Shown here: positions 14,901-63,047 of the stretch, piece after piece
How the letters are laid out: every line of letters begins with the position of its first letter
How positions within the stretch are numbered: position 1 is the stretch's first letter
Assembly (NCBI GenBank): GCA_902728285.1
Contig: CACVBU010000895.1
Location: 62,001-126,000 of the forward strand
Length of the DNA: 64,000 nt
Direction: 5' to 3'
Source of the DNA: Clytia hemisphaerica
Lineage: Eukaryota > Cnidaria > Hydrozoa > Leptothecata > Clytiidae
Position numbers and translations under genes: made by a program
The notes under the pieces: model-generated
What the model was told of the DNA's origin: nothing
Seen by the model: only the letters and a program-made list of their open reading frames with translations
Databases searched by the model: none

Positions 14901-15412
14901 AACTCTAAATGAAAATCTCTGTAATTTTGATCGAAATGAAAAATATATTGTAAAGAGAGTTTAGTTTAAAAACTAGATTTTAATGATCATTAAAATTAGC
15001 ATAACAATTACCATGTTCAGTTATACAGTTAGGTATTACGATCTGCTACTGGTGTAGAAATGAGAAATAAGAGATTACTTTTTGTGTGAATGATGAGCTG
15101 ATTTAAATAAAATATGCCAAGTGTTTGATCCAAGGAATTATAAGTTATCATTAGAATTCAGTTCATGCCAATATAACCATCAAAAAAGATTTGAGATCAA
15201 TTTTATCAACTGTGATAAAGTGTTAATTAGAATATCCATTTTAAAAGATACCTTCAGGTAAAAGAGAACTTTCATTGATAACAGGTTAACAACTGAAAAG
15301 TCGAACTCTAAATGAAAATCTCTGTAAATTTTGATCGAAATGAAAAATATATTGTAAAGAGAGTTTAGTTTAAAAACTAGATTTTAATGACCATTAAAAT
15401 TAGCATAACAAT
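8975..15412. repeat. satellite array, 406-bp period with A-B-C higher-order pattern
   Basis: The landmark CTACTGGTGTAGAAATGAG recurs at 10582, 10988, 11394, 11800, 12206, 12612, 13018, 13424, 13830, 14236, 14642 and 15046: eleven intervals, ten of exactly 406 bp and the last 404 bp. More diverged units precede it (landmarks near 9161, 9869 and 10186). Diagnostic variants (GTTAAG or GTTAGG; CTGCTA or CTCCTA; TTCAGT or TTCAGC) sort the units into types A, B and C. Many units carry the perfect 20-bp palindrome ATTTTAATGATCATTAAAAT, which A-type units break. There is no coding potential. The array stops abruptly inside a unit at 15412. Confidence 0.92.
9288..9579. mobile_element. 292-bp MITE inserted in a satellite unit, TA duplication
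   Basis: Termini CACGTTTTTTTTTTTTATAAGG are inverted at the other end. TA flanks both sides (9286-9287 and 9580-9581). Uninterrupted satellite units read GCCAATATAACC at this point, giving the empty site with a single TA. The interior carries repeated GTTCCTTAT words. No transposase is encoded. Confidence 0.8.
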
Positions 15413-23800: not shown

Positions 23801-26800
23801 AGAGTGCAGTGCGACCATGTTGGCAAGATCTATGTGGAACTCATTCAAATCATCTTCGTTGGTACATGTTTCGAGAGCAGGTACTGCTAAAGGATCATAG
23901 TCAGGGGGGTCTCTTGTTCCTTCTGGAGGCGCCCATCCTTCTTTATTAGGATTCCATTCAAGATCTTCATTTTCTGTTAAAACCTCTGAGCCACCAGCAG
24001 GATGCAAACTCGTGAACATTGGTGAGAATACCCCATCAGAATTCTTAGATACAGTTTGAAGCCATTCATGTAATTCTCTTGCTCTTTGTTCTTCTCCACA
24101 ATCAAGACTCTCTTCTACCTCTTTGGCATGTTTTTCAGAAAAGATAACACCATGAGAATGGATTTGACCACGTCCTTTGGCAAACTCGAATCTGAACCAA
24201 AAGGAGTTTGTTTGAAGAAGTTTAGAGATTACAGTATTGTAATAATTGATGGTCCTGGCACTGAAGTAGCTTGTTACAATGTGCTGGTTTTCGAGCACTG
24301 TCTGTCTGAAGAACCTTGAATCAGTTGAAAGCCGATCATAATAGTCTTGCTGATTAATGCCGCATGATTGGGCCTTATACCTGGACAGTATTAAGGCTAG
24401 AGACGTCCAATGGAACTCCGCCATGGAGTTCGTATGGAAGTATGCGGGTAAATCACCAAACTCCTTTCTGCGATAGTGCATAAATGCTTCAAGCTCTTTT
24501 TTTCTTTCGACCCAGTAAGGGTGGGTATTGACAAGATTACCACCCATCTTTATGATCTTGAGTGGGACACTCTGATCATTGTTTTCATTCAGATTTGTTC
24601 TGAGTTCGTCAATTGTCAGATGTGCATCATTCAACTGCTGGGCGACCAAAAAGCTTCCATGGTCAAGTGCCTGTTGCCGCAATTTCAGGTTATGGAGAAG
24701 AAATTTCAGAAATGGATGCTTTGGAACACGATCTTCCCCAACAAAATAAATATGTTGTATCCATTCGTCGAGATGTACAGTTACCAACTTCTTGCAGGTG
24801 ATGTCACAACTTCCATTGACAAAGATGTCAGGAGCAACCATGGTAAAAAAACCAGGCGTTTTCAATTCCTTTATGGGAACTTCTCGAGTTCGATCCCAAT
24901 CAGCGGATGCAACACCGCCTTGATGTAGAATTTCTTCAGATCCAGTCATTTTTTGTATGATCATCTTGAGCTCCTTATCAGCATCCTGTGGATCGACAGG
25001 ACAGGTGATGCCTGACCCAGTAACACTGTCATCTCCCTCGTTGAATGGAATGAAAAATTGATTGGGAGCAGGTCCTTTTTCATCTTCTGTCATGTCCTCC
25101 TGTGTTTCAACAACTTTTAGTCCTGGCAGCTGAGCGGCCTCGTCTGGAAGTTGATTTATTCTATCTTGATGGATGACTGTGTCAGCATAATATGAATTGG
25201 GGAAGTATTGAAAGTATCTTCCATTCAGCTGAACACCCATACAGTTTGGCCCATCATATTTTTGGGTCTCAGGCTGTTCATCTTCATAGCCTCCATTTGG
25301 ATATCCAAAGCAAAGTCCATCCAGTGCTTGCTCAACTTTATGTCTCCTAACACCATATTGCTTACTGGTGATGTTTTGATTTTTCCTTTTCAAAATGATT
25401 ACACCAATCTCCTCTGGCAGCAATGGTAGGTGTTTAGCTATCGACATCTTGTTAGGGATGCTGACACTGTGACCTTTACTTGAGAGCATACCATAACGAA
25501 GTAGATGAATATTAGTACATACAGTGATTTTAGCAATCATCAATCTCTCAACCATGGTAAGGTGTTGAAGAAAAGGTGGCGTGGGAAGAAAATGCATTCC
25601 ATTGTGACGGATCCTGTCTGAAGATGGCCCCAAATCTTTATCATCAGTTGTAAGGTGTCCAGAAAACTTTGCAGGTTTCTTCAGGGATGCTTGTTTTTCC
25701 TTACCCTTGTTGGAGCTATTGTTCCTCTTGTTTATTCTGTTTGACTCAGAGGTTCTTTTTGTTCGATCCTTTCGACATCGATCACAAATGCCAGCTTTGT
25801 TAACCTTCCAGACCTTTATTTTGACACGTGCTTGAGCATTGTTATAGGATGGGTTGTATACTGGACGTGTTTCTCTGCATACTACACATGTCGCCACGCC
25901 ATGATTATTTTCACCCTCCAAAAAGTCAATAACTGATTGACCAACCTCAGGATTTGGGTGAAGAGAGTCAAACACATGGCCATCGGGCTGGACAGCATCG
26001 TTACCAGGTACAGGATTAATATCCACATCCATTGGAATAGGTGGGTTTTGATCCTCTATGATTGGGATATCTGGCTGTAAAGGATCCTCTTGTGAATTTT
26101 CAATAGGGACGTCAATATTGTCAGCAACATTGTCTTTTCGGCATTGTTGCAAATTGTTGAAGTCAGCTAAATCATCTTGCTTCTGCTGCTTTATTTTTCT
26201 TCTTTGATATTTGATTTTATTCTTTATCTTTTTTGTGCGTGATTTGGTTTGTTCGTCTGTTTCATTATTAGCAGGTTGAACATAGGGAACATTATTGTCT
26301 TGACATTGTTGAAGGAGTTTTTTTTCAGCCAATCGAGACTTTGAATGTGAAATATGGTGATGTTTGTAACGTCTTTGTTTACTATCAGACCCACTACTGT
26401 GTTTACCACGCGCAGATATACTAAAGTCCATTTCCATTTCATCACAATCATCAAAAAAGAAGATTGGTTGAAGACAGTTGCGTCCCTCAAAATGCAATAT
26501 TGTGTCATTTGTTGGTACTAATGACTGAAAATGGTCGTTGTTGGAAGATGCCAAAAACATCTCTATGCCAGAAGAAGCTGCAGGGTTCAAATCAAAATAC
26601 GGTCTATCTTGTGTGCTTGTTTCACAGGTGATGCAGATATTTACATCCAAATAATAGGCAGTTGCAAGACAGAGAATGTACTCAGCATAAACTGCATTCT
26701 TTTCTTGATTTGCCAAAAATATTTCCCATTGATCACCCCCCAGATTAATTTGGTTTTGCATAATGACGTTTTGTAATCCGAAATTCTGGACTATATGATA

Positions 26801-27643
26801 AAAGTCTGTATCAGGCTGCATGTCTTTAAGAAATTTGACAACTGCTTTTCTTAACTCTCCAATGTCTGTGTATCTTCGATCTTCAGGGAGTCCTTCATAA
26901 ACAGCACCTCGGTGTATTTGCTCTACGATGGCATGGAAAAAACAGTTACCATCTCCAGGGGTTGGACTGTGATGGGAGACATCAAGACCAATGAAGCGTG
27001 CTTGGGCAACCATATAATATGCTCTCTTTGCAATTCGTTCTTTTGGAGAAGGCACCCTTGTCATTTTAGAATTACTTGTTTGAAGGGAGTTTTCAACATC
27101 AAATGGTAAAACACTTTCTTCTGTTGAAGGTACGAGGGACTGAAATAGATTATAATCTGATGATGACAAAAACATCTGAATGCCAGAAGAAGCCCCAGGG
27201 TGCAATTCAAAATATGGAATGTTTTGAGTGCTTGATTGACTAGTGATCAAAATGTTGACATCTAAAAAAAAGGCAGCTGCAACACGAATAAGGAAATCAG
27301 CCTTGGTTTCGTTCTTCTCTTGATTAGCCAAATACATCTCCCATTGAGGGCCAGAGAAACGATTTTGATTTTGTTCACAATAATATTGGTAAAACGCCGT
27401 CTCAGGTGTCAGGTCTCTCAGGAATTCAATGACTGCTATTCTTAATTTTCCAATGTCTTCAAATCGTTTTTCCTTTGGAAGTGTGAAATAAACATTGGGC
27501 CGATGAATTTGCTCAAGAATAGCATGATAAAAGCAGTTACCATCAGTAGGTGTAGGGCGATGTAGCACCATGTCCAGTCCAATACTACAGGCTCGAGCTA
27601 CCAAAAAGTTTGCTTGTTCAGTCATATTAGATATTTGTGTCAC
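20834..27643 (-). CDS. Helentron-type Helitron RepHel protein with tandem OTU domains
   Basis: One uninterrupted 2269-codon ORF for rolling-circle DNA transposition. In order: OTU protease domain 1 (DGNCF, Cys37); OTU domain 2 (DGNCF, Cys234, with DHFQSLVP, His371); a basic linker; a Cys-pair zinc motif (CVVC near 585, CDRC near 622); a DUF6570-like region (~690-750); the Helitron Rep domain with HUH motif HSH (1162-1164) and a two-tyrosine motif YICSY (Tyr1373, Tyr1377); and a PIF1-like helicase with Walker A GFGGTGKS (1749-1756, Lys1755), Walker B DE (1848-1849), GDLGQL, QTMRQ and TALSRVE. In OTU1 the position matching His371 is Leu166, so OTU1 looks catalytically dead. I see no apurinic-type endonuclease domain. 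No stop or frameshift appears, implying recent activity. Ends of the element were not located with certainty. Confidence 0.93.
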   Translation of the reverse strand: MTQISNMTEQANFLVARACSIGLDMVLHRPTPTDGNCFYHAILEQIHRPNVYFTLPKEKRFEDIGKLRIAVIEFLRDLTPETAFYQYYCEQNQNRFSGPQWEMYLANQEKNETKADFLIRVAAAFFLDVNILITSQSSTQNIPYFELHPGASSGIQMFLSSSDYNLFQSLVPSTEESVLPFDVENSLQTSNSKMTRVPSPKERIAKRAYYMVAQARFIGLDVSHHSPTPGDGNCFFHAIVEQIHRGAVYEGLPEDRRYTDIGELRKAVVKFLKDMQPDTDFYHIVQNFGLQNVIMQNQINLGGDQWEIFLANQEKNAVYAEYILCLATAYYLDVNICITCETSTQDRPYFDLNPAASSGIEMFLASSNNDHFQSLVPTNDTILHFEGRNCLQPIFFFDDCDEMEMDFSISARGKHSSGSDSKQRRYKHHHISHSKSRLAEKKLLQQCQDNNVPYVQPANNETDEQTKSRTKKIKNKIKYQRRKIKQQKQDDLADFNNLQQCRKDNVADNIDVPIENSQEDPLQPDIPIIEDQNPPIPMDVDINPVPGNDAVQPDGHVFDSLHPNPEVGQSVIDFLEGENNHGVATCVVCRETRPVYNPSYNNAQARVKIKVWKVNKAGICDRCRKDRTKRTSESNRINKRNNSSNKGKEKQASLKKPAKFSGHLTTDDKDLGPSSDRIRHNGMHFLPTPPFLQHLTMVERLMIAKITVCTNIHLLRYGMLSSKGHSVSIPNKMSIAKHLPLLPEEIGVIILKRKNQNITSKQYGVRRHKVEQALDGLCFGYPNGGYEDEQPETQKYDGPNCMGVQLNGRYFQYFPNSYYADTVIHQDRINQLPDEAAQLPGLKVVETQEDMTEDEKGPAPNQFFIPFNEGDDSVTGSGITCPVDPQDADKELKMIIQKMTGSEEILHQGGVASADWDRTREVPIKELKTPGFFTMVAPDIFVNGSCDITCKKLVTVHLDEWIQHIYFVGEDRVPKHPFLKFLLHNLKLRQQALDHGSFLVAQQLNDAHLTIDELRTNLNENNDQSVPLKIIKMGGNLVNTHPYWVERKKELEAFMHYRRKEFGDLPAYFHTNSMAEFHWTSLALILSRYKAQSCGINQQDYYDRLSTDSRFFRQTVLENQHIVTSYFSARTINYYNTVISKLLQTNSFWFRFEFAKGRGQIHSHGVIFSEKHAKEVEESLDCGEEQRARELHEWLQTVSKNSDGVFSPMFTSLHPAGGSEVLTENEDLEWNPNKEGWAPPEGTRDPPDYDPLAVPALETCTNEDDLNEFHIDLANMVALHSCNGYCLKKKKKESKTRYCRSHFGKEDPITKKTPGKELHPFEPRIVSGGHPRYEGPRDHPRMLNHIKTLLISWQANCDCQALIDQDLLNLVKYICSYCCKGACSTEDFVTIYRELLDSAEIGTTVKNVTHRLLMQIVGIVDVPSAAADFINAGGQLYHSTNKIQRVGLSGYRQLNSKGPKNDENATNETPLDQFLGESRRQEDPDRTLYDNTKICRCKPPCGRDHVPLFTGTDVKPIWPLSEKFCKGQLMIHSKGTWRTPDDLKDEEEQFSDAFADFLNDSPDCPEFLKEIVALSKQNYDKKVERDRRRNRNVNQDEIQENRDVQLSQPPSIQLSQDSQQSSQDSVYNDLRLGEALLRDIRLNNNVNFDAIIGDANLFDGGPGFDWNLYGKECFGSNEWPANTKTWLKDQYDEAEDMINTHLNNHDLPDVNLLWANPKQRLIIAINLEKLLDVAIGEEETEPLRLLVQGFGGTGKSFTINAITYIARRLFRRNGSALNIAPTGAASTLIPDGRTLHSTTPIPFMTRNERSTVNMIDHTMNSKKLKKLQTVINFNKETKSHGLYALNMDERSMYSPRLLAWCNQRFMEATEDFNHDFGNIPVVNFFGDLGQLGPIEGKDLHIHPSKNVTPENLKGHGIYKNFTQCVVLTQTMRQKPDQKTLLERLMRIRSGNITQQDWLDINAKYEKNMTEEQKAYFQNGRVITLNETWQEVFDENREKLTELGVPIATIPCTEGRGTCHKTTGQKQMGQIPGISYLAVGCPVMLTKNQGPLTTFGLNNGAIGTVIAILYAEGHRPPSTPDAVIVNFEGYKGPAWLDDHPKWVPIVPLKTLCDAHSSCTRTGLPLIAAYSIPIAKSQGMTIGEGKPATHMRVKLQQKNFMEALSLGTTYTALSRVETDSRWCLVEEIPQDRLLYINTHPAMPGRREEEERLNTMSDETIAQYSHYMEDIDSYINLLNRFDSVCNDGIISTDCRRNNDSCPCLLCKSTHRQ

Positions 27644-28062: not shown

Positions 28063-31000
28063 ATCAACACAATCGCAAGTGTATAAAAAGTATATAATTA
28101 TAATAATCACGCAGTTTGAGAAAATACTAAATACTTATGTGTCTGTGTAATCTTTAAGCTTACTTGGGTGCTTACTATTGAAATTTGAACGATTTCGGTA
28201 CAGCGGCAATAAAATATCAGTATCGGTATCGGTATGGGGTACAGCATCTCCATAGGAAAACGTAAACGCAAAACTTTAAAAAAAATTCTCTTAGAAGTCC
28301 CAGCAATATATTACAGATACAAATAACTACAAAAATGATTTAAAAAAAAGAGAAACCCAAAAGTATCAAAACAATCGCAAGTCAAGTGTATAAAATAATC
28401 ACGCAGTTTGAGGAAAAAACTAAATACTTATCTGTCTGTGTAACCTTTAAGCTTACTTGGTTGCTTATTTACTTGGGTACTTACTATTGAAATTTGAACG
28501 ATTTCGGTACAGCGGCAATTGGATATCGGTATCGGTATCGGTATGGGGTACAGCATCTCCATAGGAAAACGTAAACGCAAAACTTTAAAAAAAATTCTCT
28601 TAGAAGTCCCAGCAATATATTACAGATACAAATAACTACAAAAATGATTTAAAAAAAAAGAGAAACCCAAAAGTATCAAAACAATCGCAAGTCAAGTGTA
28701 TAAAATAATCACGCAGTTTGAGAAAAAAACTAAATACTTATCTGTGTCTGTGTAACCTTTAAAAGCTTACTTGGTTGCTTATTTACTTGGGTGCTTACTA
28801 TTGAAATTTGAACGATTTCGGTACAGCGGCAATTGGATATCGGTATCGGTATGGGGTACAGCATCTCCATAGGAAAACGTAAACGCAAAACTTAAAAAAA
28901 ATTCTCTTCGAAGTTCCCATATATTACAGATACAAAAAACTGCAAAAATGATTAAAAAAAAAAGCGAAACCCAAAAGTATCAACACAATCGCAAGTCAAG
29001 TGTATAAAATAATGATGCAGTTTGAGAAAAAACTAAATACTTATCGTGTCTGTGTAACCTTTAAAAGCTTACTTGGTTGCTTATTTACTTGGGTGCTTAC
29101 TATTGAAATTTGAACGATTTCGGTACAGCGGCAATTGGATATCGGTATCGGTATCGGTATGGGGTACAGCATCTCCATAGGAAAACGTAAACGCAAAACT
29201 TTAAAAAAAATTCTCTTAGAAGTCCCAGCAATATATTACAGATACAAATAACTACAAAAATGATTTAAAAAAAAAGAGAAACCCAAAAGTATCAAAACAA
29301 TCGCAAGTCAAGTGTATAAAATAATGACGCAGTTTGAGAAAAAAACTAAATACTTATCTGTCTGTGTAACCTTTAAGCTTACTTGGTTGCTTATTTACTT
29401 GGGTGCTTACTATTGAAATTTGAACGATTTCGGTACAGCGGCAATTGGATATCGGTATCGGTATCGGTATGGGGTACAGCATCTCCATAGGAAAGCGTAA
29501 ACGCAAAACTTAAAAAAAAATTCTCTTCGAAGTTCCCATATATTACAGATACAAAAAACTGCAAAAATGATTAAAAAAAAAAGCGTAACCCAAAAGTATC
29601 AACACAATCGCAAGTCAAGTGTATAAAATAATGATGCAGTTTGAGAAAAAACTAAATACTTATCGTGTCTGTGTAACCTTTAAAAGCTTACTTGGTTGCT
29701 TATTTACTTGGGTGCTTACTATTGAAATTTGAACGATTTCGGTACAGCGGCAATTGGATATCGGTATCGGTATGGGGTACAGCATCTCCATAGGAAAACG
29801 TAAACGCAAAACTTTAAAAAAAATTCTCTTCGAAGTTCCCATATATTACAGATACAAAAAACTGCAAAAATGATTAAAAAAAAAAGCGAAACCCAAAAGT
29901 ATCAACACAATCGCAAGTCAAGTGTATAAAATATTGATGCAGTTTGAGAAAAAACTAAATACTTATCGTGTCTGTGTAACCTTTAAAAGCTTACTTGGTT
30001 GCTTATTTACTTGGGTGCTTACTATTGAAATTTGAACGATTTCGGTACAGCGGCAATTGGATATCGGTATCAGTATCGGTATGGGGTACAGCATCTCCAT
30101 AGGAAAACGTAAACGCAAAACTTTAAAAAAAATTCTCTTAGAAGTCCCAGCAATATATTACAGATACAAATAACTACAAAAATGATTTAAAAAAAAGAGA
30201 AACCCAAAAGTATCAAAACAATCGCAAGTCAAGTGTATAAAATAATCACGCAGTTTGAGAAAAAACTAAATACTTATCTGTCTGTGTAACCTTTAAGCTT
30301 ACTTGGTTGCTTATTTACTTGGGTACTTACTATTGAAATTTGAACGATTTCGGTACAGCGGCAATTGGATATCGGTATCAGTATCGGTATGGGGTACAGC
30401 ATCTCCATAGGAAAAAGTAAACGCAAAACTTTAAAAAAAATTCTCTTAGAAGTCCCAGCAATATATTACAGATACAAATAACTACAAAAATGATTTAAAA
30501 AAAAAGAGAAACCCAAAAGTATCAAAACAATCGCAAGTCAAGTGTATAAAATAATCACGCAGTTTGAGAAAAAACTAAATACTTATCTGTCTGTGTAACC
30601 TTTAAGCTTACTTGGTTGCTTATTTACTTGGGTACTTACTATTGAAATTTGAACGATTTCGGTACAGCGGCAATTGGATATCGGTATCGGTATCGGTATG
30701 GGGTACAGCATATCCATAGTAAAACGTAAACGCAAAACTTTAAAAAAAATTCTCTTAGAAGTCCCAGCAATATATTACAGATACAAAAAACTGCAAAAAT
30801 GATTAAAAAAAAAAGCGAAACCCAAAAGTATCAACACAATCGCAAGTCAAGTGTATAAAATATTGATGCAGTTTGAGAAAAAACTAAATACTTATCGTGT
30901 CTGTGTAACCTTTAAAAGCTTACTTGGTTGCTTATTTACTTGGGTGCTTACTATTGAAATTTGAACGATTTCGGTACAGCGGCAATTGGATATCGGTATC

Positions 31001-31143
31001 GGTATGGGGTACAACATCTCCATAGGAAAACGTAAACGCAAAACTTTAAAACAAATTCTCTTGGAAGTTCCCATATATTACAGATACAAAAAAACTACAA
31101 AAATTATTTAAAAAAAAAGCGAAACCCAAAAGTATCAACACAA
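28063..31143. repeat. tandem array, ~308-bp period (302-314), ten copies
   Basis: GATTTCGGTACAGCGG recurs at 28191, 28500, 28814, 29116, 29426, 29735, 30038, 30346, 30655 and 30967. Unit length varies because of nested (CGGTAT)2-4 copy number, poly-A length and two sequence types: a long type with AGAAGTCCCAGCAATATATT, and a short type with GAAGTTCCCATATATT and CTTTAAAAGCTT. The unit at 30655 starts as the long type and ends as the short type. Identical 60-codon ORFs inside the units are repeat artefacts. The array directly precedes the Helentron. Confidence 0.9.
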
Positions 31144-31737
31144 TACCTGTTGACTTGAAAAACTTGAAAAACGAATGAGATTCTGTTTCTTTTGAAATCT
31201 TTTCAAATCAGCTTTGGCTTTTAACTTTTCTTTGCTTTCGTTGGGTTGTGGTTGTGACCAGTGTACGAAATGAACAGCTGGTTGCCGACGATACGCTTCA
31301 GAAACGGAAAACGTACAACTCTGAACAAACAGATTCACTTGAACCTACGCCTCATCAAAGACGTTCCGCAAATTGAATCAACGTATCACGACAAAAAAGC
31401 TAGTGCCTCGCTGTCTCACGCCTAAATGGTATTTGTTTGTTTTTGCGGAGTTGCCAAACAACAGACAGTCGGGTACAGGCGATAATTCTCCATATTGGGA
31501 CTTAAGACAGTTGCACACGACGACGAAATTCTGAATGGAAACGAGGCTTAAAAAGGGTAAAAATCGATTTTATCACCCCGCATATCAGCTATTTTTCCCG
31601 CGCTTTTGCCAAAAGAATCGCACTCGCTCGCTGCGCTCGCTCGTGCGTAATGACACTCAACATTGTAGGGAGGGGGAGGGGAGGGAAATGACAAGAAAAA
31701 ACCCTAGAATATGTAAAATTCCATTTACTTTTTGCCA
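31144..31737. other. intergenic with a G-quadruplex motif
   Basis: No gene is called. A CG-rich block (CGCTCGCTGCGCTCGCTCG, ~31626-31644) is followed at 31668-31685 by GGGAGGGGGAGGGGAGGG, a textbook four-run G-quadruplex motif. A 67-codon minus-strand ORF at 31338-31135 has a charged tail but no recognisable family. Confidence 0.5.
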
Positions 31738-43971: not shown

Positions 43972-44431
43972 GTCACTATACTAATAGTCACACATAGCAA
44001 TTTTTTTTTAAATCACCATGATATTTTGGGTGAATTTACCAGATTTAATTTTCACAATTGCAACTTTTTAAAGTGAATTATATGTGAGTTCACCCGAAAA
44101 TCAAGGTATATACTTTTTTAGATTTTTCCTGTGTGAATGATAGGCATTATAATTTTGATTTTTTAAATTATAAGTGCGGTCGGAGGCGTAAACAACAAAT
44201 CAAATTGGTCCCACCTTATGGTCTTCTAAAACCTTTCAAGTCCAACAAAGAAAAAATTTAGTTCATAACGCTAATTGGGTGACATTGAACGGTACAAAGT
44301 ATTGCAAAGAAACTATGGTAGCAGCATTTGTGCCTATTATAACTCGTGAAAATCCACTGCCTCAAATGGTGCAATCAAAGAGATATATATCATTGGTGAC
44401 TATGTTTATTTCGGTTTGGCGCTTATGAAAA
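43972..44431. other. intergenic, no gene seen
   Basis: Nothing recognisable; unique sequence leading into the tandem duplication. Confidence 0.4.
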
Positions 44432-45509
44432 CATCCCACTTTGAATATCACTGCAAGCGTATCATGTTGCAAACCAATATGAAAATAATGTTATAATACC
44501 ATATCGCTGTCATCAAGGCAAAAGGTCCAATCTCAAAATTAGTGTCTGAGGAAACTAAGAACTTCTCTGTTTTGCTAAGGCGAGGCCAATTCAATTTGTT
44601 GTTTTACGGGCCAAGCTACCCAAAAAAGAGGGTCGGTCGGTCGGCAAAAAAAAATAAAAATAAAAGTAGAATTTAACCTATATAAAATATCCTAGAAAGG
44701 CAACAAAAACTACTCCATCTTGACAAAAATGTGAAATAGAAAATAAAAAGGCACGAAAAGGTCGAATTCATGGATAAAATGGAAACTGAACGTAAAATTC
44801 TGAAAATCTTGGAAAAACTACCAGAATTTTGAAAATTTGAGAGTCTGTAAAGCAATGAATATCAGAAGATACTACCGAAATGAATTTTATTTTTATTTCG
44901 TTTTTTGGAGTTTTAGGGTCGGTCAGGCCCGTAAAACATCCCACTTTGAATATCACTGCAAGCGTATCATGTTGCAAACCAATATGAAAATAATGTTATA
45001 ATACCATATCGCTGTCATCAAGGCAAAAGGTCCAATCTCAAAATTAGTGTCTGAGGAAACTAAGAACTTCTCTGTTTTGCTAAGGCGAGGCCAATTCAAT
45101 TTGTTGTTTTACGGGCCAAGCTACCCAAAAAAGAGGGTCGGTCGGTCGGCAAAAAAAATAAAAATAAAAGTAGAATTTAACCTATATAAAATATCCTAGA
45201 AAGGCAACAAAAACTACTCCATCTTGACAAAAATGTGAAATAGAAAATAAAAAGGCACGAAAAGGTCGAATTCATGGATAAAATGGAAACTGAACGTAAA
45301 ATTCTGAAAATCTTGGAAAAACTACCAGAATTTTGAAAATTTGAGAGTCTGTAAAGCAATGAATATCAGAAGATACTACCGAAATTAATTTTATTTTTAT
45401 TTCGTTTTTTGGAGTTTTAGGGTCGGTCAGGCCCGTAAAACATCCCACTTTGAATATCACTGCAATCGTATCATGTTGCAAACCAATATGAAAATAATGT
45501 TATAATACT
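44432..45509. repeat. recent 505-bp tandem duplication plus a 68-bp third part
   Basis: CATCCCACTTTGAATATCAC starts at 44432, 44937 and 45441. The two full units differ at only a handful of positions. The join carries short homology (AAAACATCCC both before the first unit and at the junction), as expected of slippage or microhomology-mediated duplication. Identical 60-codon ORFs in the two units are not considered genes. Confidence 0.85.
44601..44937. mobile_element. 337-bp inverted-repeat element inside the duplication (second copy 45106-45441)
   Basis: The ends are GTTTTACGGGCC...GGCCCGTAAAAC, with GGGTCGGTCGG-like sequence next to both ends in inverted orientation. It lies within the 505-bp unit and is therefore present twice. 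No target duplication is evident. The GGTCGGTCGG word also occurs near 42409. Confidence 0.5.
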
Positions 45510-45963: not shown

Positions 45964-48538
45964 ATGGAGCAAAATCGTCACCTCACAACATTCATCACAA
46001 CATATGGTAGATGGAGATACAAACGTGCTCCTCAAGGTTTCTTGTCATCTGGGGATGGTTACAACCGTCGCTTTGACGCTATACTCGCTGATTTTGATCG
46101 AAAAGAGCGCATTGTAGACGACACGTTGTTTTATGATAATGAGCTCCAAGAACATTGGTGGAGAACTATTGACTTTCTTATAACTGTCGGTAATGCTGGT
46201 ATCGTTCTTAACCCAAATAAGTTTCAGTTTGCCTCTCGCGAGGTAGACTTTGCTGGTTTCTGCATTACTAGTGAACGCATTGACCCACTTCCCAAATATT
46301 ACAATGCGATCAAGAACTTTCCTACACCTAAATCAACCACAGACATTAGAAGTTGGTTTGGGCTAGTGAACCAGGTTGCGAACTATGCTCAGCTTCGCCA
46401 GTACATGGAACCATTTCGTCCTTCTCTATCACCCCGCCATCCCTTCAAATGGACAGCTGAACTCAACAAGGCTTTCGAAGATTCCAAGCTGGCCATCGTC
46501 GAAGCCATTCGTAAGGGTGTTGAAATCTTTGACCTCGAGTTACCAACGTGCCTTCGCACCGACTGGTCGAAAAAGGGAGTCGGTTACTTCCTTCTACAAA
46601 AACACTGTTCCTGTCCAGAAACGACTCCAGACTGTTGCGAAGATGGATGGCGCATCACCCTAGCTGGATCACGATTCCTATCCCCTGAAGAGCAGAACCT
46701 TGACGAATCGATTGAAGGAGAGGCGCTTGCTATCGTTTATGCCCTTGAGCAGACTAAGTACTTCACCCTTGGATGTCACAACCTTATCATCGCAACAGAT
46801 CACCAACCTCTTGTCAAAATTTTCGGTGATAGAACACTTGATGAGATTTCTAATGAGAGACTGTTTAAATTAAAGAAAAGGATTCTACCATGGTACTTTA
46901 ACGTAATCTGGGTACCAGGTGAAGAAAATTCTGCAGTCAACGCAACTTCACGATACCCTTCTGCTGATCAACCTAACGATTGTGTTACATGGATGGAATG
47001 TCTGGCTGCCTCAGCTATTCAAAACGACACCCACAATCTCACATCGATAACATGGGAGACTCTGTCAGCAGCTACACGTACTGATCCTACATTTATCACC
47101 CTTCGAGAAGCCATTATTCAAGGATACCCTGAAGCCTATCGAACAGACCCGAAAACAGCTCCATTCTGGCGTTATCGCGACAGTCTCCACCTGGTCGAAG
47201 ATGTCATAGTTTACAATGACCGTGTCGTGGTACCATCATCTCTCCGACCTACTGTTTTGGACGTGCTTCATTCAGCCCACCAAGGAGCTTCCACTATGGC
47301 CCTTCGTGCCCGTGCTACAGTCTTTTGGCCTGGCATGACGGATGATATTGAACGTCGACGTCAATCATGCAGAGATTGTATCAAGAATGCACCTTCTCAA
47401 CCACGCCTTCCCAGCGAAGTGACCGCCCCACCCGCAACACTTTTCGAACAAACATTTGCTGATTTTTTTGAATGTGTCGGTCTACCTCGTCATCGGGGAT
47501 CGATTGTCTGGTTCGTCGGATGTCTTTCGCCCACCTAAAGGATCGCCACAAGCAGGATCAGAGGGGCTTATCTGCTGCCTTCGAAATTGTTTCGCCAGAT
47601 TCGGTGTTCCAGAAGAAATTTCTAGTGATGGAGGTCCAGAATTTGTCAGTAAAGCTACAGAAGATTTCCTTGCCAAATGGGGAGTTCGTCATCGCCTATC
47701 ATCTGCTTATAACCTGCAGTCAAATGGCCGAGCTGAAGTTACTGTGAAGACAACCAAACATCTCCTTCGATCAAACATATCTCCATCAGGAATACTTGAC
47801 AATGATCGCTTCCTCCGCGCAATGATGCATCTCAGAAACACTCCAGATCCAGACTGCAACAACTCACCTGCTGAAATCGTATTCGGTCGACAAATCTGTG
47901 ATGCATTTGCTTTCGTTAACAGACTGGAGAAGTTCAACAATGACAACATCAGCCCAGTTTGGCGTACTGCTTGGAAGAAAAAGGAGGAGGCCCTTCGACA
48001 ACGTTTCCACCGATCAGCCGAAGAACGCAACAACCACACACGACCGCTACCTCCTCTTCGTTTCGGCGATCGATGCTACATACAGAATCAAACCGGTCCC
48101 CATCCAGAACTCTGGGAGCGTTCTGGTACCGTTGTGGAAGACCATTGCCACAGTAGTTACACACTAAAAGTCGACGGAACTGGTCGCGTCACACGTCGTA
48201 ACCGTCAACATCTTCGCCGATTCCAACCTGCTTCAACAGAAATTGTCAGCAAGCAATCATTCGTCGGTCAGCCAATACCCGCTTCCATTAGACATGAATC
48301 TCCACCTCCCAAGGCACAGGAACCTGCACCGAGCATTCCTGCGACGTCCCCATCGTCAACGGTTCCTGCACCCATGAAAATCCGTCCCATCCCTGACGTC
48401 CCCATACAAGACGAACCATCCCATCCCGAAGATCAGTCACCTAACAAGAGTCCTCCCCCAGATGTGTCCACCCCACGACCACAACGCCAACGTCGTTCAC
48501 CTCGTCGTTATGAACCAGAAACTGGACATTGGAAATGA
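45964..48538 (+). pseudogene. Ty3-like LTR retrotransposon pol (RT-RNase H-integrase), truncated and frameshifted
   Basis: The frame opens inside the RT fingers/palm (HLTTFITTYGRWRYKRAPQG), so gag, protease and the first RT motif are missing. The catalytic box is VDDTLFYD. RNase H follows (LRTDWSKKGVGYFLLQKH, EGEALAIVYALEQTKY, ATDHQPL), then the integrase zinc motif (HSAHQG...CRDCI). A small frameshift at ~47480-47500, inside the integrase core just after FADFFECVG, moves the rest (DRLSG, SSDGGPEF, SNGRAEV, then a C-terminal domain and Pro-rich tail) into the frame that ends at 48538. The overlap of the two frames (47456-47538) reflects the lesion. Retroviral-type pol order is Ty3/Metaviridae-like. 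Confidence 0.85.
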
Positions 48539-56684: not shown

Positions 56685-56742
56685 TATAATAGTAGTAAGA
56701 TATGGAGAGAGCTGGCACATTTTTGACACCTCCAGCAATGCC

Positions 56743-56855
56743 GAAAGTGAGTGACACTACAGAAAGTGAGTGACACTACAGAAAGTGAGTGACACTACAG
56801 AAAGTGAGTACACGATAGAACGTGATTGACACCTTACAGAAAGTGAGTGTCACCA
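56743..56855. repeat. subterminal 19-bp repeats, left arm (inverse at 62877-62991)
   Basis: AGAAAGTGAGTGACACTAC repeats three to four times in tandem, then degenerates (AGAAAGTGAGTACACGATAG, AGAAAGTGAGTGTCACCAC). It begins ~50 bp from the element end. The mirror copy lies at the other end. Possible binding sites for the replication or integration machinery. Confidence 0.7.
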
Positions 56856-57079
56856 CAGAATAAGTTTCAAGTGGTAAATAATTTTCTGGTTATCTATAAA
56901 AGCATTAAAGTCATTTTCCCTATCGGAAAAACCCGAAAACACCGGAATTTGACCAATGAGTGTTACTAAAATTGCAACACATGGGTCAAATTCAACACCT
57001 CCAGTACTATCTAAGAATAAGTTCCGAGTGGTAAATAATTTTCCGGTTATCTATTAAAGCACTGAGCTTCTTAGTCTAA

Positions 57080-57310
57080 TTATTCATAAATCATAAAAAT
57101 AAAACAATAACACCATCCATGTGAAAGATTTGATATATAGGTAATTTTATCAGTAACAGGAAACATATGCGAGATAGCAACAATTCTTATTAAAGAAAAT
57201 AACCAAGTCTTATTTCTAATTGTAAAAGATGAATTTGGAAACGTTCGTTTTTTGAAAGTCTTCAAGGCATTTGATTGAAAATTCTTTAAGCGTTTATTAA
57301 GCTTGTACAT
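57080..57310 (-). CDS. small basic ORF, left arm
   Basis: ATG at 57310 opens MYKLNKRLKNFQSNALKTF, a Lys/Arg-rich ~76-residue product (basic N-terminal half, hydrophobic C-terminal half). The right-arm copy is identical except for its last residues, which differ because of indels. Function unknown. A small basic DNA- or membrane-associated protein is possible, but so is chance. Confidence 0.3.
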   Translation of the reverse strand: MYKLNKRLKNFQSNALKTFKKRTFPNSSFTIRNKTWLFSLIRIVAISHMFPVTDKITYISNLSHGWCYCFIFMIYE

Positions 57311-57603
57311 TTTTTGAGGTAAGCAACACTGCTGCACTTGTAAAAATCGAGTCAGTATATAAACAAGTCTAGGTTGATGAATTAAGCAAATCTAAGTGAA
57401 ATTCTCAAATTGGAAGAACAAAAGAACATTAAATTTTGATGTTGAAAACTACTTTAATAAAGACAAGGAGGAATTTTTTATCATAATTCAACGACCCAAC
57501 ATTTGAATTCCAAAGAAAATTCGTGAAGGAGGCTCAGAGGAGTACCCAGAGTCAATTAAATTAGCACTATTGTCTAGCCACTGGAAACAAGTGTTCATAG
57601 AAG

Positions 57604-57756
57604 ATGGTTTTTCGAACTTCACACAAGTTGTTAGTGATAGGGAATCAAACGATATTTGTAATAGTACGCTGGATGGATGGAGAAATTGAGTATATAAAGT
57701 TGGAACTCTTAGCTGATGATCGATGGATTAAAAATCTAAGATTACAAAAATTTTAG
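57604..57756 (+). CDS. 50-residue ORF, left arm
   Basis: ATG GTT TTT CGA starts a 50-codon frame containing FVIVRWMDGEIEYIKLELLA and DDRWIKNLRLQKF before TAG. Its composition is protein-like for its size and it is intact in both arms. It could be the end of a longer spliced or broken ORF. Not recognised. Confidence 0.25.
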   Translation: MVFRTSHKLLVIGNQTIFVIVRWMDGEIEYIKLELLADDRWIKNLRLQKF

Positions 57757-58024
57757 ATTGTTAAATAGGGAATGAATGAAATAGTTTATTTGAGAAGAAA
57801 CAAAACAACATTGGTAACAAAATTGAACGTGGATACACCAAATAAAAGATGCGTAAAAGAATGTATTAAAGTTATTACTATAATCCAAAAACCCTATGTA
57901 ACACTACTTTGAGCTAAAATCGTAGAGGCAATAAAAAGAACTGAGAAAACAAAAATATTTATTGCTTGATGGTAATATATTTCTAGCTTATAAAAACAAT
58001 GTTATAATTTACAAGGGTCAAATC

Positions 58025-58450
58025 TCATTCTTTCATTGCATCATTTGGAATTTGTCGATTAATTAGAAAGCGACGTTTTTCAACAGCGAAATCTAATGCT
58101 TCTTCAAAATCCATATCTTCCTCATCTCTAACCCTTTGTAAAGTTTCCATCACAGATTTATGTGTTTTATCCTTTTTCATTGCTCGAAGAAAAAGGATTT
58201 TGTATTTATAAATCTCATGAATTGATAAGTCAGTCTCTTGACATTCGTTCAACATGCTCTCCCAAATATTAAATGTTTCTTTAACACCTTGAGATTCTTC
58301 GCTATCACTGGACATGGGCTCGCTGTCTGTAAAGTCTTCATCAGACTCTTGATCTTCTTCTTCAGATTCTTCAGGGTGGGCCTTTGCAACATGTCGATTA
58401 TAATTGCTTTTATTGGAAAAGGTCTTTTCGCAATCGTCGCATTCATACAT
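58025..58450 (-). CDS. C2H2 zinc-finger protein, left arm
   Basis: ATG at 58450 gives 141 residues. The protein begins with one C2H2 finger (CDDC...H-x4-H, residues ~4-25), then an acidic run (EESEEEDQESDEDF), Ser-rich DSEPMSSDSEES, and a helical C-terminal domain (FNIWESMLNECQE, KTHKSVMETLQRVRDEEDMD, DFAVEKRRFLINRQ). The frame stays open upstream of the ATG (FAYKFVSKDVTS) and contains GTAAGTAAG, so an extra 5' exon is possible. It reads outward, away from the core. The partner copy on the right differs at two residues. Its role is unknown; DNA binding is likely from the finger. A link to Polintons is inferred from its position in the arm. Confidence 0.65.
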   Translation of the reverse strand: MYECDDCEKTFSNKSNYNRHVAKAHPEESEEEDQESDEDFTDSEPMSSDSEESQGVKETFNIWESMLNECQETDLSIHEIYKYKILFLRAMKKDKTHKSVMETLQRVRDEEDMDFEEALDFAVEKRRFLINRQIPNDAMKE

Positions 58451-58949
58451 CGTGTTTCTTCCGCTGGCTTTAAACTTATTTGAAGAAGTAACATCCTTAC
58501 TTACGAATTTATATGCAAAACGCAAGAGTAATCCGATATCGGGTTTCTCTTTAGGAGCCTGGTTTCTCTCTAAGATCTTTGTTTCTTCCAGATTACCTAG
58601 TCTTTATTGGTCCACGTTCGTTTCTTGGTCCGGGACTAGCTTGAGAATTCTAGTCTTACTTGATCCTCTTTTGGGACTCCAGTAGTTCTTTACCTAGTCC
58701 TTGTTAGTCCCTTTTTTGAGACCAACCAATTCTTATTGGTGGCTGCAAAAGTAATCCCTTTTTGTGTCGACATAGTCCCTTTTAGACTTCTATTAGGACT
58801 ATCCGATTCCTGTTTCGGACTACTTAGTTTTGATAAATCGTTTTCGGAACTAGCTAAATCCTGTTTTGGATACCCACTTTAAGCTTCATGAGTATCTAAT
58901 CCTCTTTTGTATCTACATAGTCCTAGCTTAATTATCCTTAGGATTAACG

Positions 58950-59287
58950 GGATTACCTAATCCTTCTTTGGAACTAACTAATCCTTATTTGGGATTGCCT
59001 AATCCCTCTTTGGGATCAACTAATCCTCATTTGAGATTACCCGATCCCTCTTTAGGATCAACTAATCCTCATTTAGGATTACCTAATCCCTCTTTGGGAT
59101 CAACTAATCCTCATTTGGGATTACCTAATCCCTCTCTGGGATCAACTAATCTTCATTTGGGATTACCTAATCCCTCTTTAGGATCAACTACTCCTCATTT
59201 GGGATTACCTAATCCCTCTTTGGGATCAACTAATCTTCATTTGGGATTACCTAGTCCCTCTTTGGGACCAACTAATCCTCATTTGGG
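58950..59287. repeat. 42-bp minisatellite, left arm (inverse ~60452-60790)
   Basis: About eight copies of a 42-bp unit (ATTACCTAATCCCTCTTTGG...CCTCATTTGGG), itself built of two half-units. The period is a multiple of three, so one frame reads as a 14-residue repeat ([14 protein letters not shown]). It is flanked by ~95-bp direct repeats (58640-58733 and 59290-59384). No start context or domain supports translation. Confidence 0.75.
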
Positions 59288-59501
59288 GACTAGCTTGAGA
59301 AATCTAGTCTTACATGATCCTCTTTTGGGACTATGTAGTTCTGCACCTAGTCCTTGTTAGTCCCTTTTTTGAGACCAACCAATCGGAACTGCGTGATTCT
59401 AGTTAATCCCTCTTTTAGGATTACTTAATCACTAGTTGGATCCTTTCTTCCAATTCATATCAAGGGCTCATGGTATGTTGTTGTTGTTGTTCCTTTTTCT
59501 T

Positions 59502-59532
<31 letters not shown>

Positions 59533-59579
59533 CGCGTTTTTTGTTTGGTGTGGGATTTTATTATTTTGTTAGTTACACC

Positions 59580-59608
59580 CGTAAGTCCCGCCAAAGGCGG
59601 GGCTTACG
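59580..59608. other. GC-rich hairpin, left arm (inverse at 60131-60159)
   Basis: CGTAAGTCCCGCC-AAA-GGCGGGGCTTACG is a 13-bp stem with one mismatch, followed by CCCCGGGCCCCG. It lies next to a long poly-T run in otherwise AT-rich DNA. Possibly the 3' end of an older small insertion or a structural signal. Confidence 0.55.
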
Positions 59609-59666
59609 CCCCGGGCCCCGTCAGAAGTGCAGTGAAGGTCAAATTTAGGGATAAATATAAATCCGA

Positions 59667-59969
59667 TCAACTTTGACGTTTCAAGCCATCACTTTGTGAT
59701 AAACACCTTTGCAGATTGTTTTCCGATTTGTCGAACATTTCATCAAGATCGGCGGGCAAACCAATTACATTTTCTACGGTTGGAAAGTAGGACTTCAACC
59801 TTTCCAAAAGATCTTCCTGATGCTTTGTGAACAACCATACTATTCTATCAAACTCTTTATCGAAAACATCATTTCTGTATTTGATAAGATTTTGGGCAAA
59901 AACAGATTTCTCTGCACCTCTTAAACAGCTAACGAGTATACTAAAAGGATGCTTTAGCTTTACATCCAT
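59667..59969 (-). pseudogene. truncated packaging-ATPase-like fragment in the palindrome core
   Basis: ATG at 59969 opens ~100 codons beginning with KHPFSILVS and a degenerate P-loop (CLRGAEKS): the Lys-Ser remains, but the first and third glycine positions are Cys and Glu. A hydrophobic strand (DRIVWLF) and a YFPTVENVIGLP segment follow. Together these resemble the N-terminal part of A32/FtsK-type packaging ATPases found in Polintons and large DNA viruses. At 59685 the frame runs into the left arm and ends at a stop 19 bp later, so everything after about codon 95 is lost. It cannot be functional. Assignment is by motif only. Confidence 0.55.
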
Positions 59970-61282
59970 TGTTTAAATCATAGTTTTATTTCTTAGCAGT
60001 TGTTATGACTTTTACTGCATGAACGTGTTAGCTTCAAAGATGCTTATCAATGACTTGAAACGTCAAAGTTGATCGGATTTATATTTATCCCTAAATTTGA
60101 CCTTCACTGCACTTCTGACGGGGCCCGGGGCGTAAGCCCCGCCTTTGGCGGGACTTACGGGTGTAACTAACAAAATAATAAAATCCCACACCAAACAAAA
60201 AACGCGTAAAAAAAAAAAAAAAAAAAAAGAAAAGAAAAAGGAACAACAACAACAACATACCATGAGCCTTGATATGAATTGGAAGAAAGGATCCAACTAG
60301 TGATTAAGTAATCCTAAAAGAGGGATTAACTAGAATCACGCAGTTCCGATTGGTTGGTCTCAAAAAAGGGACTAACAAGGACTAGGTGCAGAACTACATA
60401 GTCCCAAAAGAGGATCATGTAAGACTAGATTTCTCAAGCTAGTCCCCAAATGAGGATTAGTTGGTCCCAAAGAGGGACTAGGTAATCCCAAATGAAGATT
60501 AGTTGATCCCAAAGAGGGATTAGGTAATCCCAAATGAGGAGTAGTTGATCCTAAAGAGGGATTAGGTAATCCCAAATGAAGATTAGTTGATCCCAGAGAG
60601 GGATTAGGTAATCCCAAATGAGGATTAGTTGATCCCAAAGAGGGATTAGGTAATCCTAAATGAGGATTAGTTGATCCTAAAGAGGGATCGGGTAATCTCA
60701 AATGAGGATTAGTTGATCCCAAAGAGGGATTAGGCAATCCCAAATAAGGATTGGTTAGTTCCAAAGAAGGATTAGGTAATCCCGTTAATCCTAAGGATAA
60801 TTAAGCTAGGACTATGTAGATACAAAAGAGGATTAGATACTCATGAAGCTTAAAGTGGGTATCCAAAACAGGATTTAGCTAGTTCCGAAAACGATTTATC
60901 AAAACTAAGTAGTCCGAAACAGGAATCGGATAGTCCTAATAGAAGTCTAAAAGGGACTATGTCGACACAAAAAGGGATTACTTTTTGCAGCCACCAATAA
61001 GAATTGGTTGGTCTCAAAAAAGGGACTAACAAGGACTAGGTAAAGAACTACTGGAGTCCCAAAAGAGGATCAAGTAAGACTAGAATTCTCAAGCTAGTCC
61101 CGGACCAAGAAACGAACGTGGACCAATAAAGACTAGGTAATCTGGAAGAAACAAAGATCTTAGAGAGAAACCAGGCTCCTAAAGAGAAACCCGATATCGG
61201 ATTACTCTTGCGTTTTGCATATAAATTCGTAAGTAAGGATGTTACTTCTTCAAATAAGTTTAAAGCCAGCGGAAGAAACACG

Positions 61283-61708
61283 ATGTATGAATGCGACGAT
61301 TGCGAAAAGACCTTTTCCAATAAAAGCAATTATAATCGACATGTTGCAAAGGCCCACCCTGAAGAATCTGAAGAAGAAGATGAAGAGTCTGATGAAGACT
61401 TTACAGACAGCGAGCCCATGTCCAGTGATAGCGAAGAATCTCAAGGTGTTAAAGAAACATTTAATATTTGGGAGAGCATGTTGAAAGAATGTCAAGAGAC
61501 TGACTTATCAATTCATGAGATTTATAAATACAAAATCCTTTTTCTTCGAGCAATGAAAAAGGATAAAACACATAAATCTGTGATGGAAACTTTACAAAGG
61601 GTTAGAGATGAGGAAGATATGGATTTTGAAGAAGCATTAGATTTCGCTGTTGAAAAACGTCGCTTTCTAATTAATCGACAAATTCCAAATGATGCAATGA
61701 AAGAATGA
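61283..61708 (+). CDS. C2H2 zinc-finger protein, right arm
   Basis: Mirror copy of the 58,025-58,450 gene, 141 residues from ATG at 61283, also reading outward from the core. It differs at Glu for Gln in the acidic run and Lys for Asn in the MLKECQE segment. Both copies are intact. It could be expressed from a promoter in the inner arm. What it binds is unknown. Confidence 0.65.
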   Translation: MYECDDCEKTFSNKSNYNRHVAKAHPEESEEEDEESDEDFTDSEPMSSDSEESQGVKETFNIWESMLKECQETDLSIHEIYKYKILFLRAMKKDKTHKSVMETLQRVRDEEDMDFEEALDFAVEKRRFLINRQIPNDAMKE

Positions 61709-61975
61709 GATTTGACCCTTGTAAATTATAACATTGTTTTTATAAGCTAGAAATATATTACCATCAAGCAATAAATATTTTTGTTTTCTCAGTTCTTTTT
61801 ATTGCCTCTACGATTTTAGCTCAAAGTAGTGTTACATAGGGTTTTTGGATTATAGTAATAACTTAATACATTCTTTTACGCATCTTTTATTTGGTGTATC
61901 CACGTTCAATTTTGTTACCAATGTTGTTTTGTTTCTTCTCAAATAAACTATTTCATTCATTCCCTATTTAACAAT

Positions 61976-62128
61976 CTAAAATTTTTGTAATCTTAGATTT
62001 TTAATCCATCGATCATCAGCTAAGAGTTCCAACTTTATATACTCAATTTCTCCATCCATCCAGCGTACTATTACAAATATCGTTTGATTCCCTATCACTA
62101 ACAACTTGTGTGAAGTTCGAAAAACCAT
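61976..62128 (-). CDS. 50-residue ORF, right arm
   Basis: Mirror copy of the ORF at 57604-57756, with the same start and stop. Not recognised. Confidence 0.25.
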   Translation of the reverse strand: MVFRTSHKLLVIGNQTIFVIVRWMDGEIEYIKLELLADDRWIKNLRLQKF

Positions 62129-62422
62129 CTTCTATGAACACTTGTTTCCAGTGGCTAGACAATAGTGGTAATTTAATTGACTCTGGGTACTCCTCTGAGC
62201 CTCCTTCACGAATTTTCTTTGGAATTCAAATGTTGGGTCGTTGAATTATGATAAAAAATTCCTCCTTGTCTTTATTAAAGTAGTTTTCAACATCAAAATT
62301 TAATGTTCTTTTGTTCTTCCAATTTGAGAATTTCACTTAGATTTGCTTAATTCATCAACCTAGACTTGTTTATATACCTGACTCGATTTTTACAAGTGCA
62401 GCAGTGTTGCTTACCTCAAAAA

Positions 62423-62641
62423 ATGTACAAGCTTAATAAACGCTTAAAGAATTTTCAATCAAATGCCTTGAAGACTTTCAAAAAACGAACGTTTCCAAAT
62501 TCATCTTTTACAATTAGAAATAAGACTTGGTTATTTTCTTTAATAAGAATTGTTGCTATCTCGCATATGTTTCCTGTTACTGATAAAATTACCTATATAT
62601 CAAATCTTTCACATGGATGGTGTTATTGTGTTATTTTATGA
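62423..62641 (+). CDS. small basic ORF, right arm
   Basis: Mirror copy of the ORF at 57080-57310. In this arm the frame is also open upstream of the Met (to ~62366) because of a 1-nt difference, and the last residues differ (HGWCYCVIL). Such arm-specific shifts at both ends weaken the case for a conserved protein. Confidence 0.3.
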   Translation: MYKLNKRLKNFQSNALKTFKKRTFPNSSFTIRNKTWLFSLIRIVAISHMFPVTDKITYISNLSHGWCYCVIL

Positions 62642-63047
62642 TTTATGAATAATTAGACTAAGAAGCTCAGTGCTTTAATAGATAACCGGAAAATTATTTA
62701 CCACTCGGAACTTATTCTTAGATAGTACTGGAGGTGTTGAATTTGACCCATGTGTTGCAATTTTAGTAACACTCATTGGTCAAATTCCGGTGTTTTCGGG
62801 TTTTTCCGATAGGGAAAATGACTTTAATGCTTTTATAGATAACCAGAAAATTATTTACCACTTGAAACTTATTCTGTGGTGACACTCACTTTCTGTAAGG
62901 TGTCAATCACGTTCTATCGTGTACTCACTTTCTGTAGTGTCACTCACTTTCTGTAGTGTCACTCACTTTCTGTAGTGTCACTCACTTTCGGCATTGCTGG
63001 AGGTGTCAAAAATGTGCCAGCTCTCTCCATATCTTACTACTTATAAT

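Follow-up and report, generated by a model that had tools for sequence, protein, structure and literature searches.

The element and its contents

We analyzed a 64,000-nucleotide stretch of the Clytia hemisphaerica genome (contig CACVBU010000895.1, positions 62,001 to 126,000 of the forward strand; hereafter the window), which contains a palindromic element with the ends of a Polinton (Maverick), a class of large DNA transposons. An inverted-repeat search of the window placed the element at 56691-63041 (6,351 bp), starting with AGTAGT and ending with ACTACT, that is, (AGT)2//(ACT)2, and directly flanked on both sides by TATAAT, a 6-bp target site duplication (TSD); the chance equality of two random 6-mers from the window is P ~0.0005. 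An earlier note on this DNA, made from its letters, had reported inverted arms, AG/CT termini and exact TATAAT on both sides, all of which were borne out by this search and by inspection of the ends. The features of the element are as follows.

56685..56690: left target site duplication, TATAAT, 6 bp
56691..63041: palindromic element, 6,351 bp, AGTAGT...ACTACT
56691..59714, plus strand: left arm, 3,024 bp
56743..56860, plus strand: subterminal 19-bp tandem array of the left arm, ~6 copies
58025..58450, minus strand: C2H2 zinc-finger gene of the left arm, 141 aa
58949..59287, plus strand: 42-bp tandem array of the left arm, ~8 copies
59471..59714, plus strand: left copy of the ATPase-leader/hairpin segment, an inverted duplicate that is single in 5/5 near-complete ATPase loci of that type
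59702..59722, plus strand: foldback-junction stretch, 21 bases, joining ATPase codon 86 to the inverted leader
59712..59969, minus strand: packaging ATPase codons 1-86 (PF04665 family), with altered P-loop residues
59970..60031, minus strand: ATPase leader, the 62 bp preceding the ATPase start, continuous with the right arm, an arrangement also seen in the near-complete ATPase loci
60032..63041, minus strand: right arm, the inverted copy, 3,010 bp
60445..60783, minus strand: 42-bp tandem array of the right arm
61283..61708, plus strand: C2H2 zinc-finger gene of the right arm, 141 aa
62872..62989, minus strand: subterminal 19-bp tandem array of the right arm
63042..63047: right target site duplication, TATAAT, 6 bp

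The outermost 408 nt of the two arms are identical, and the first 2,995 columns of their alignment contain five substitutions, five one-base indels (all in homopolymers of 2-5 bases, so that read errors are possible) and a 6-base difference in poly-T length. Solid identity stops at 59689/60050, and both BLAST and comparison with relatives extend the homology to 59714/60032, leaving a unique core of 317 bp once the imperfect inner arm stretch is counted. The palindrome described in the earlier note therefore stands, while its sizes (~2.99-kb arms and a 368-bp core) are revised. Between the two 101-bp flanks, the best inverted match is 9 bases with one mismatch.

The zinc-finger gene was recognized in both arms by tblastn with a relative, P0001, and by the length of its open reading frame (ORF), and by a match to PF00096 (29.6 bits), obtained on the right-arm ORF, to which the left-arm ORF is near-identical. 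The zinc-finger query found 13 proteins, of which 12 align over 75-85% of the query and one over 37%. The core encodes an ATPase fragment that is 87% identical to P0014, a 211-aa protein matching PF04665 (poxvirus A32). This family takes in Polinton packaging ATPases. A PF04665 protein has also been labelled the DNA-packaging ATPase of a polinton-like virus (PMC12721341). By alignment, the fragment and P0014 differ at 11 residues, three of them among the eight P-loop residues, the rest of the fragment being well kept.

The element does not contain a complete A32-like packaging ATPase, having codons 1-86 with an altered P-loop, and P0014 beyond residue 86 found no match beside the fragment. Its largest ORF is at most 166 aa, and for capsid genes no search aimed at them was made. 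Among its 13 ORFs of at least 80 aa, the three that were scanned matched neither protein-primed PolB nor a retroviral-type integrase (rve), and a genome search with PF03175, a PolB family, gave no match on the window's contig (C618). Further searches were likewise negative: IMG/VR showed nothing related to the zinc-finger protein, to its alignment, to P0014, to the 42-bp repeat or to the terminus, GTDB contigs gave nothing for the zinc-finger alignment or P0014, and phage records nothing for P0014, each of these three possibly leaving out records of the element's own genome. A homologue search with the unpadded ATPase fragment found none, and searches of PHROGs, Rfam (gathering threshold), tRNA, NCBIfam and solved structures returned nothing useful.

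Palindromic copies at many sites

The genome (417 Mb, 951 contigs) was searched with a 610-bp query from the end of the element, giving at least 46 matches (best 40 of 201 candidates scored). Twenty further loci were taken for comparison, leaving out those on C666 and C687, so that with the window there were 21: 16 two-ended and free of gaps (window included), three with runs of N (L023, L025, L028) and two one-ended (L026, L027). Perfect 6-bp TSDs, all different, flank 12 of the 16 (TATAAT, GATAAC, TTCTAG, TAAGCT, CCCCAG, TATACA, AAATTT, GGACGA, AATAAG, TGCGAC, TGATTG and CAAATA). The arms of these 12 copies are ~2.8-3.0 kb long, one arm of L018 carrying an insertion. The core of the palindromes consists of the first ~86 ATPase codons, partly deleted in some copies, and ATPase sequence was matched in the core of all two-ended loci but L020 (15/16).

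Palindromic copies have thus inserted at many places with 6-bp duplications. The earlier note had proposed a non-autonomous Polinton derivative with gene-bearing arms and had suggested looking for palindromic copies with other 6-bp flanks; these exist, as a family with a zinc-finger gene in its arms. The finding it named as fatal, a palindrome sitting always in the same flanking DNA, did not occur, though the flanks of two loci are symmetric.

L020, C717:147398-153881: inverted symmetry ~0.5 kb into the flanks; no ATPase fragment matched
L022, C276:554384-561795: inverted symmetry ~0.5 kb into the flanks

Such symmetry is what artefacts or chromosomal inversions can give, and it is the point in favor of regarding the palindromes as faults of assembly or as two chance insertions in opposite orientation. 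We consider this extremely improbable, given 12 separate loci with distinct flanks and matching hexamers, and given that the window's arms differ by small changes and so were probably read separately.

Foldback origin of the arms

Five near-complete loci of the P0014-type ATPase were compared (L029-L033, on C248, C308, C792, C856 and C730, the last with two stops). In all five, the core sequence runs without a break into the inner 244 bp of the right arm, and the leader/hairpin segment (L029:2140-2430) is single copy, apart from a local inverted match of only 28 nt. In the palindromic loci, the same segment (best 40 of 45 candidates scored) is an inverted pair: one copy begins at query base 56 in 12 contigs, and its partner begins at query base 1-11 in 11 of these and at 106 in C526. 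In others a copy begins at 88-94 (C236, C597, C38, C129, two on C553, and C28), and C594 and C924 have one copy each among the matches listed.

Alignment shows the edge of the left arm to be the inverted ATPase leader joined to ATPase codon 86. The 21-base chimeric string across this junction was present in 10 of the 16 two-ended loci (L017 and L022 among them) and in none of the five near-complete ATPase loci, all of which have the native continuation in its place; the junction is common to eight of the 12 TSD-bearing copies. The founder's breakpoint fuses ATPase codon 86 to a position 62 bp before the ATPase start, so that the 5′ end of the ATPase became the hairpin loop, and the leader, with the sequence outward of it, became the two arms. 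Seven bases at the left junction, CACTTTG, were considered as an insertion, which was rejected because L029 shows them to be ancestral and lost on the right.

The existence of loci that carry the core without the duplication indicates that the arms are a foldback product, as the earlier note had inferred. Two marks of a snap-back genome are present, namely an inverted duplication absent from the unrearranged relative and an asymmetric loop contiguous with one arm. Since the leader is single in the ATPase loci and is an inverted pair with a shared junction in the palindromes, the founder arose by one foldback-type inverted duplication, and a single founding event followed by spread is the simplest reading.

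Two other origins were weighed. A parent Polinton with terminal inverted repeats (TIRs) of ~3 kb could have lost everything from its left repeat into the ATPase, internal deletion being the usual origin of non-autonomous elements, and TIRs of polinton-like viruses run from hundreds to thousands of bp, with a search filter of up to 8 kb (PMC12220804). In vertebrate Mavericks, however, TIRs span only 46-1,447 bp (PMC8097293), beside the ATPase the arm's inner 244 bp occur once in 5/5 near-complete loci, and nothing peculiar to the left side lies between the end of the inner left arm and the breakpoint, which fits copying and not a deletion between long repeats. We therefore regard internal deletion as unlikely. 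Repair of a gap after insertion, in which a break in an inserted Polinton was healed by copying one end from the other and end-joining, would keep the TSD and give a foldback-like junction, and subsequent gene conversion between the arms would give concerted evolution. The same junction nevertheless lies at 10 loci, and eight of these differ in their TSDs, so that what moved was the complete palindrome, already formed. Gap repair is accordingly improbable for the family, if slightly less so than internal deletion, and may still apply to the founder alone and to the homogenization of the arms.

Concerted evolution of the two arms

Over the outer 2 kb, the two arms of one copy differ by a median of 0.18%, against an average of 3.1% for arms of different copies, and in 11 of the 12 TSD-bearing copies the arms are nearer to each other than to the nearest other copy. 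The mean distance between the arms of a copy was 0.0045, compared with 0.030 for random pairing, and none of 10,000 trials was as low. Changes private to a copy were found in both of its arms in 115 cases and in one arm in 67, of which 45 fall in L011 and L012. Because the shared junction makes palindromy older than the divergence of the copies, mutations must have been copied from arm to arm. The arms of each lineage have thus been repeatedly made alike, each re-templated from the other, and we infer that the copying happens during replication of the element.

Selection on the zinc-finger gene

A zinc-finger frame of at least 130 aa is kept in 16 of 24 arms, and 11 of the 12 copies keep at least one. 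The ratio of non-synonymous to synonymous divergence (dN/dS) was computed for 12 chosen pairs of the 136 possible. Within the window's family it was 0.09-0.14 for four pairs (e.g., six synonymous and three non-synonymous changes) and 0.42 for the closest pair (one synonymous and two non-synonymous changes), and between subfamilies, the second of which is described below, it was 0.11-0.14 at a synonymous divergence (dS) of 0.59-0.79 (four pairs). These comparisons indicate that the gene in the arms is under purifying selection, with dN/dS of ~0.1. The earlier note had regarded the palindrome as a defective product of replication; the foldback product stands, but not as a mere defective by-product, for the family propagates, evolves concertedly and has a selected gene.

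A genome search with P0001 gave at least 131 matches (best 150 of 200 candidates scored), which merged to 105 gene copies. Among these, 72 form 36 divergent pairs within 6 kb and 33 are unpaired, compared with one convergent and one same-strand pair of neighbors. Two unpaired loci were fetched: that on C781 has no inverted repeat in 5.5 kb, and that on C300 has several short ones.

A second palindromic subfamily

At C108:442987-449141 lies a further palindrome (6,155 bp), which has a spacer of ~40 bp, the terminal sequences AGTAGT...ACTACT and a TSD of AAAATC. The zinc-finger gene and related 42-bp repeats are common to it and the window's arm; the outermost parts of the C108 palindrome find no match in that arm, and the genome's ATPase matches do not include C108. 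On C769, a locus shows the same degree of symmetry across the 3.4-kb pieces compared. Palindromy extends to a second, distant subfamily; it may have arisen twice, or the core may have been replaced. Similar pairs lie on C128:1807418, C793, C824 and C771, judged by match positions alone, the ends having been checked for C108 only.

Candidate helpers

Four loci in the genome match P0014 at 99%, and nine more near-full-length, stop-free loci match at 52-58% identity. Weak matches to the PF03175 PolB family (26-27 bits, just above the family cut-off) were found on C8, C65, C224 and C835, each at 3.2-4.0 kb from, and oriented opposite to, a more distant ATPase; the ATPase frame is broken on C835 and split on C65. 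Polinton-type elements able to help therefore probably exist in this genome.

Proposed history of the element

Taken together, we interpret the element as a member of a non-autonomous family of palindromes that descends from a Polinton/Maverick, was founded by foldback, spread, and has had its arms re-templated and its enzymes supplied in trans; we place the probability of this reading at about three in four (0.77). The founder would have been a snap-back product of protein-primed, strand-displacement replication, in which the growing strand changed template to its own displaced arm and was extended back to the end. A Polinton polymerase and integrase acting in trans would then replicate and insert the palindromic unit. 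Because a single strand of a palindrome holds both arms and can fold, passage through a hairpin or panhandle would template one arm on the other each time the element replicates, which would account for their identity.

Several observations weigh against this reading. The direct parent was not found: outside the inner 244 bp of the arm, the ATPase-bearing loci have other genes (on C248, those beyond the leader differ from the palindrome's arm), and the outer arm is not shared by the ATPase-bearing relatives found, the ends of those loci not having been reached. Four of the 16 two-ended loci are without a perfect TSD: that of L024 is imperfect, L017 is rearranged, and L020 and L022, whose flanks are themselves inverted copies for ~0.5 kb (as far as fetched), have the look of inverted duplications in the chromosome or of faults in assembly. 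A core deletion common to L011-L014 removed the junction. The arms of L011 are not nearest to each other even over the outer 2 kb, and over the outer 2.7 kb mutually closest arms are found in 9/12 copies, L011, L012 and L018 failing (L018 through the insertion in one arm). Chromosomal gene conversion is another possible source of the identity between arms. Lastly, PF03175 found no match in any of the five loci taken as the unduplicated state, and no link was found between these termini and an integrase or terminal protein.

A wider reading, which we hold tentatively and at somewhat less than even odds, is that the palindromic elements are a self-sustaining satellite class of Polintons with hairpin-templated arms, in which the selected zinc-finger protein, which perhaps binds the repeat arrays in the arms, lets the satellite exploit the Polinton polymerase and integrase. 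Under the same tentative reading, the palindromic state would have lasted long enough for two subfamilies to form (zinc-finger dS ~0.6-0.8).

Other features of the window

Elsewhere in the window, a 2,269-aa open frame with PIF1 helicase, DUF6570 and OTU domains (20834-27643) is one that we take to be Helitron-like, and frames for reverse transcriptase/RNase H and integrase (45964-48538) are presumably Gypsy-type. Tandem arrays lie at 10162-15412 (406-bp unit, 13 copies, G+C ~27%) and 28160-31144 (309-bp unit, ~10 copies), and near-identical direct repeats of ~504 bp, in two to three copies, at 44428-45508.

Comparison with known systems

A literature search gave no report of a palindromic Polinton family among the matches listed, most subscription journals being outside its coverage, and for palindromic defective adenovirus genomes it returned mostly papers on adeno-associated virus (AAV) and vectors, or none. 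According to PMC8097293 and PMC7805220, Mavericks/Polintons have not been observed as virus particles or in extracellular form, and Polinton replication is for that reason mostly inferred. A palindrome lineage with a mapped junction, TSDs and concerted arms provides a sequence record of template switching, to which hairpin copying would be added by inference, and it points to a gene that selection maintains within a non-autonomous element.

Vertebrate Mavericks have (AGT)2//(ACT)2 ends, 6-bp TSDs, lengths of 12.7-24.6 kb and TIRs of 46-1,447 bp (PMC8097293). The element resembles them in its ends, its perfect 6-bp TSD and its packaging ATPase sequence, and differs in its length of 6.35 kb, in 3.0-kb arms that take up almost the whole of it and in having no ORF above 166 aa. 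As it agrees in ends and TSD but not in genes, we file it as a non-autonomous Polinton derivative and not as a Polinton. Snap-back (defective) genomes of AAV, a parvovirus, are likewise self-complementary with one end duplicated, the asymmetric ones being looped, and the AAV type is helper-dependent; unlike them, the palindrome family spreads in chromosomes, has its own TSDs and carries a selected gene in both arms (PMC8235507).

Among transposons, the Galileo/Foldback-like elements of Drosophila are similar in that the non-autonomous copies of Galileo have the longest TIRs, with internal tandem repeats, and some TIRs were extended by inverted recruitment of internal sequence; Galileo, however, belongs to the P-element superfamily, has 7-bp bounding sequences and TIRs of up to ~1.26 kb, and is not Polinton-derived (PMC3573991). 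Cryptophyte polinton-like viruses have TIRs of hundreds to thousands of bp and, where an rve integrase is present, TSDs of 5-6 bp, but are complete viruses, unlike the palindrome (PMC12220804). Insert sizes of 6-80 kb were kept in that work, a filter that we take to drop palindromes like the element, and the family described here points to a satellite layer on Polintons that such insert-size filters would hide.

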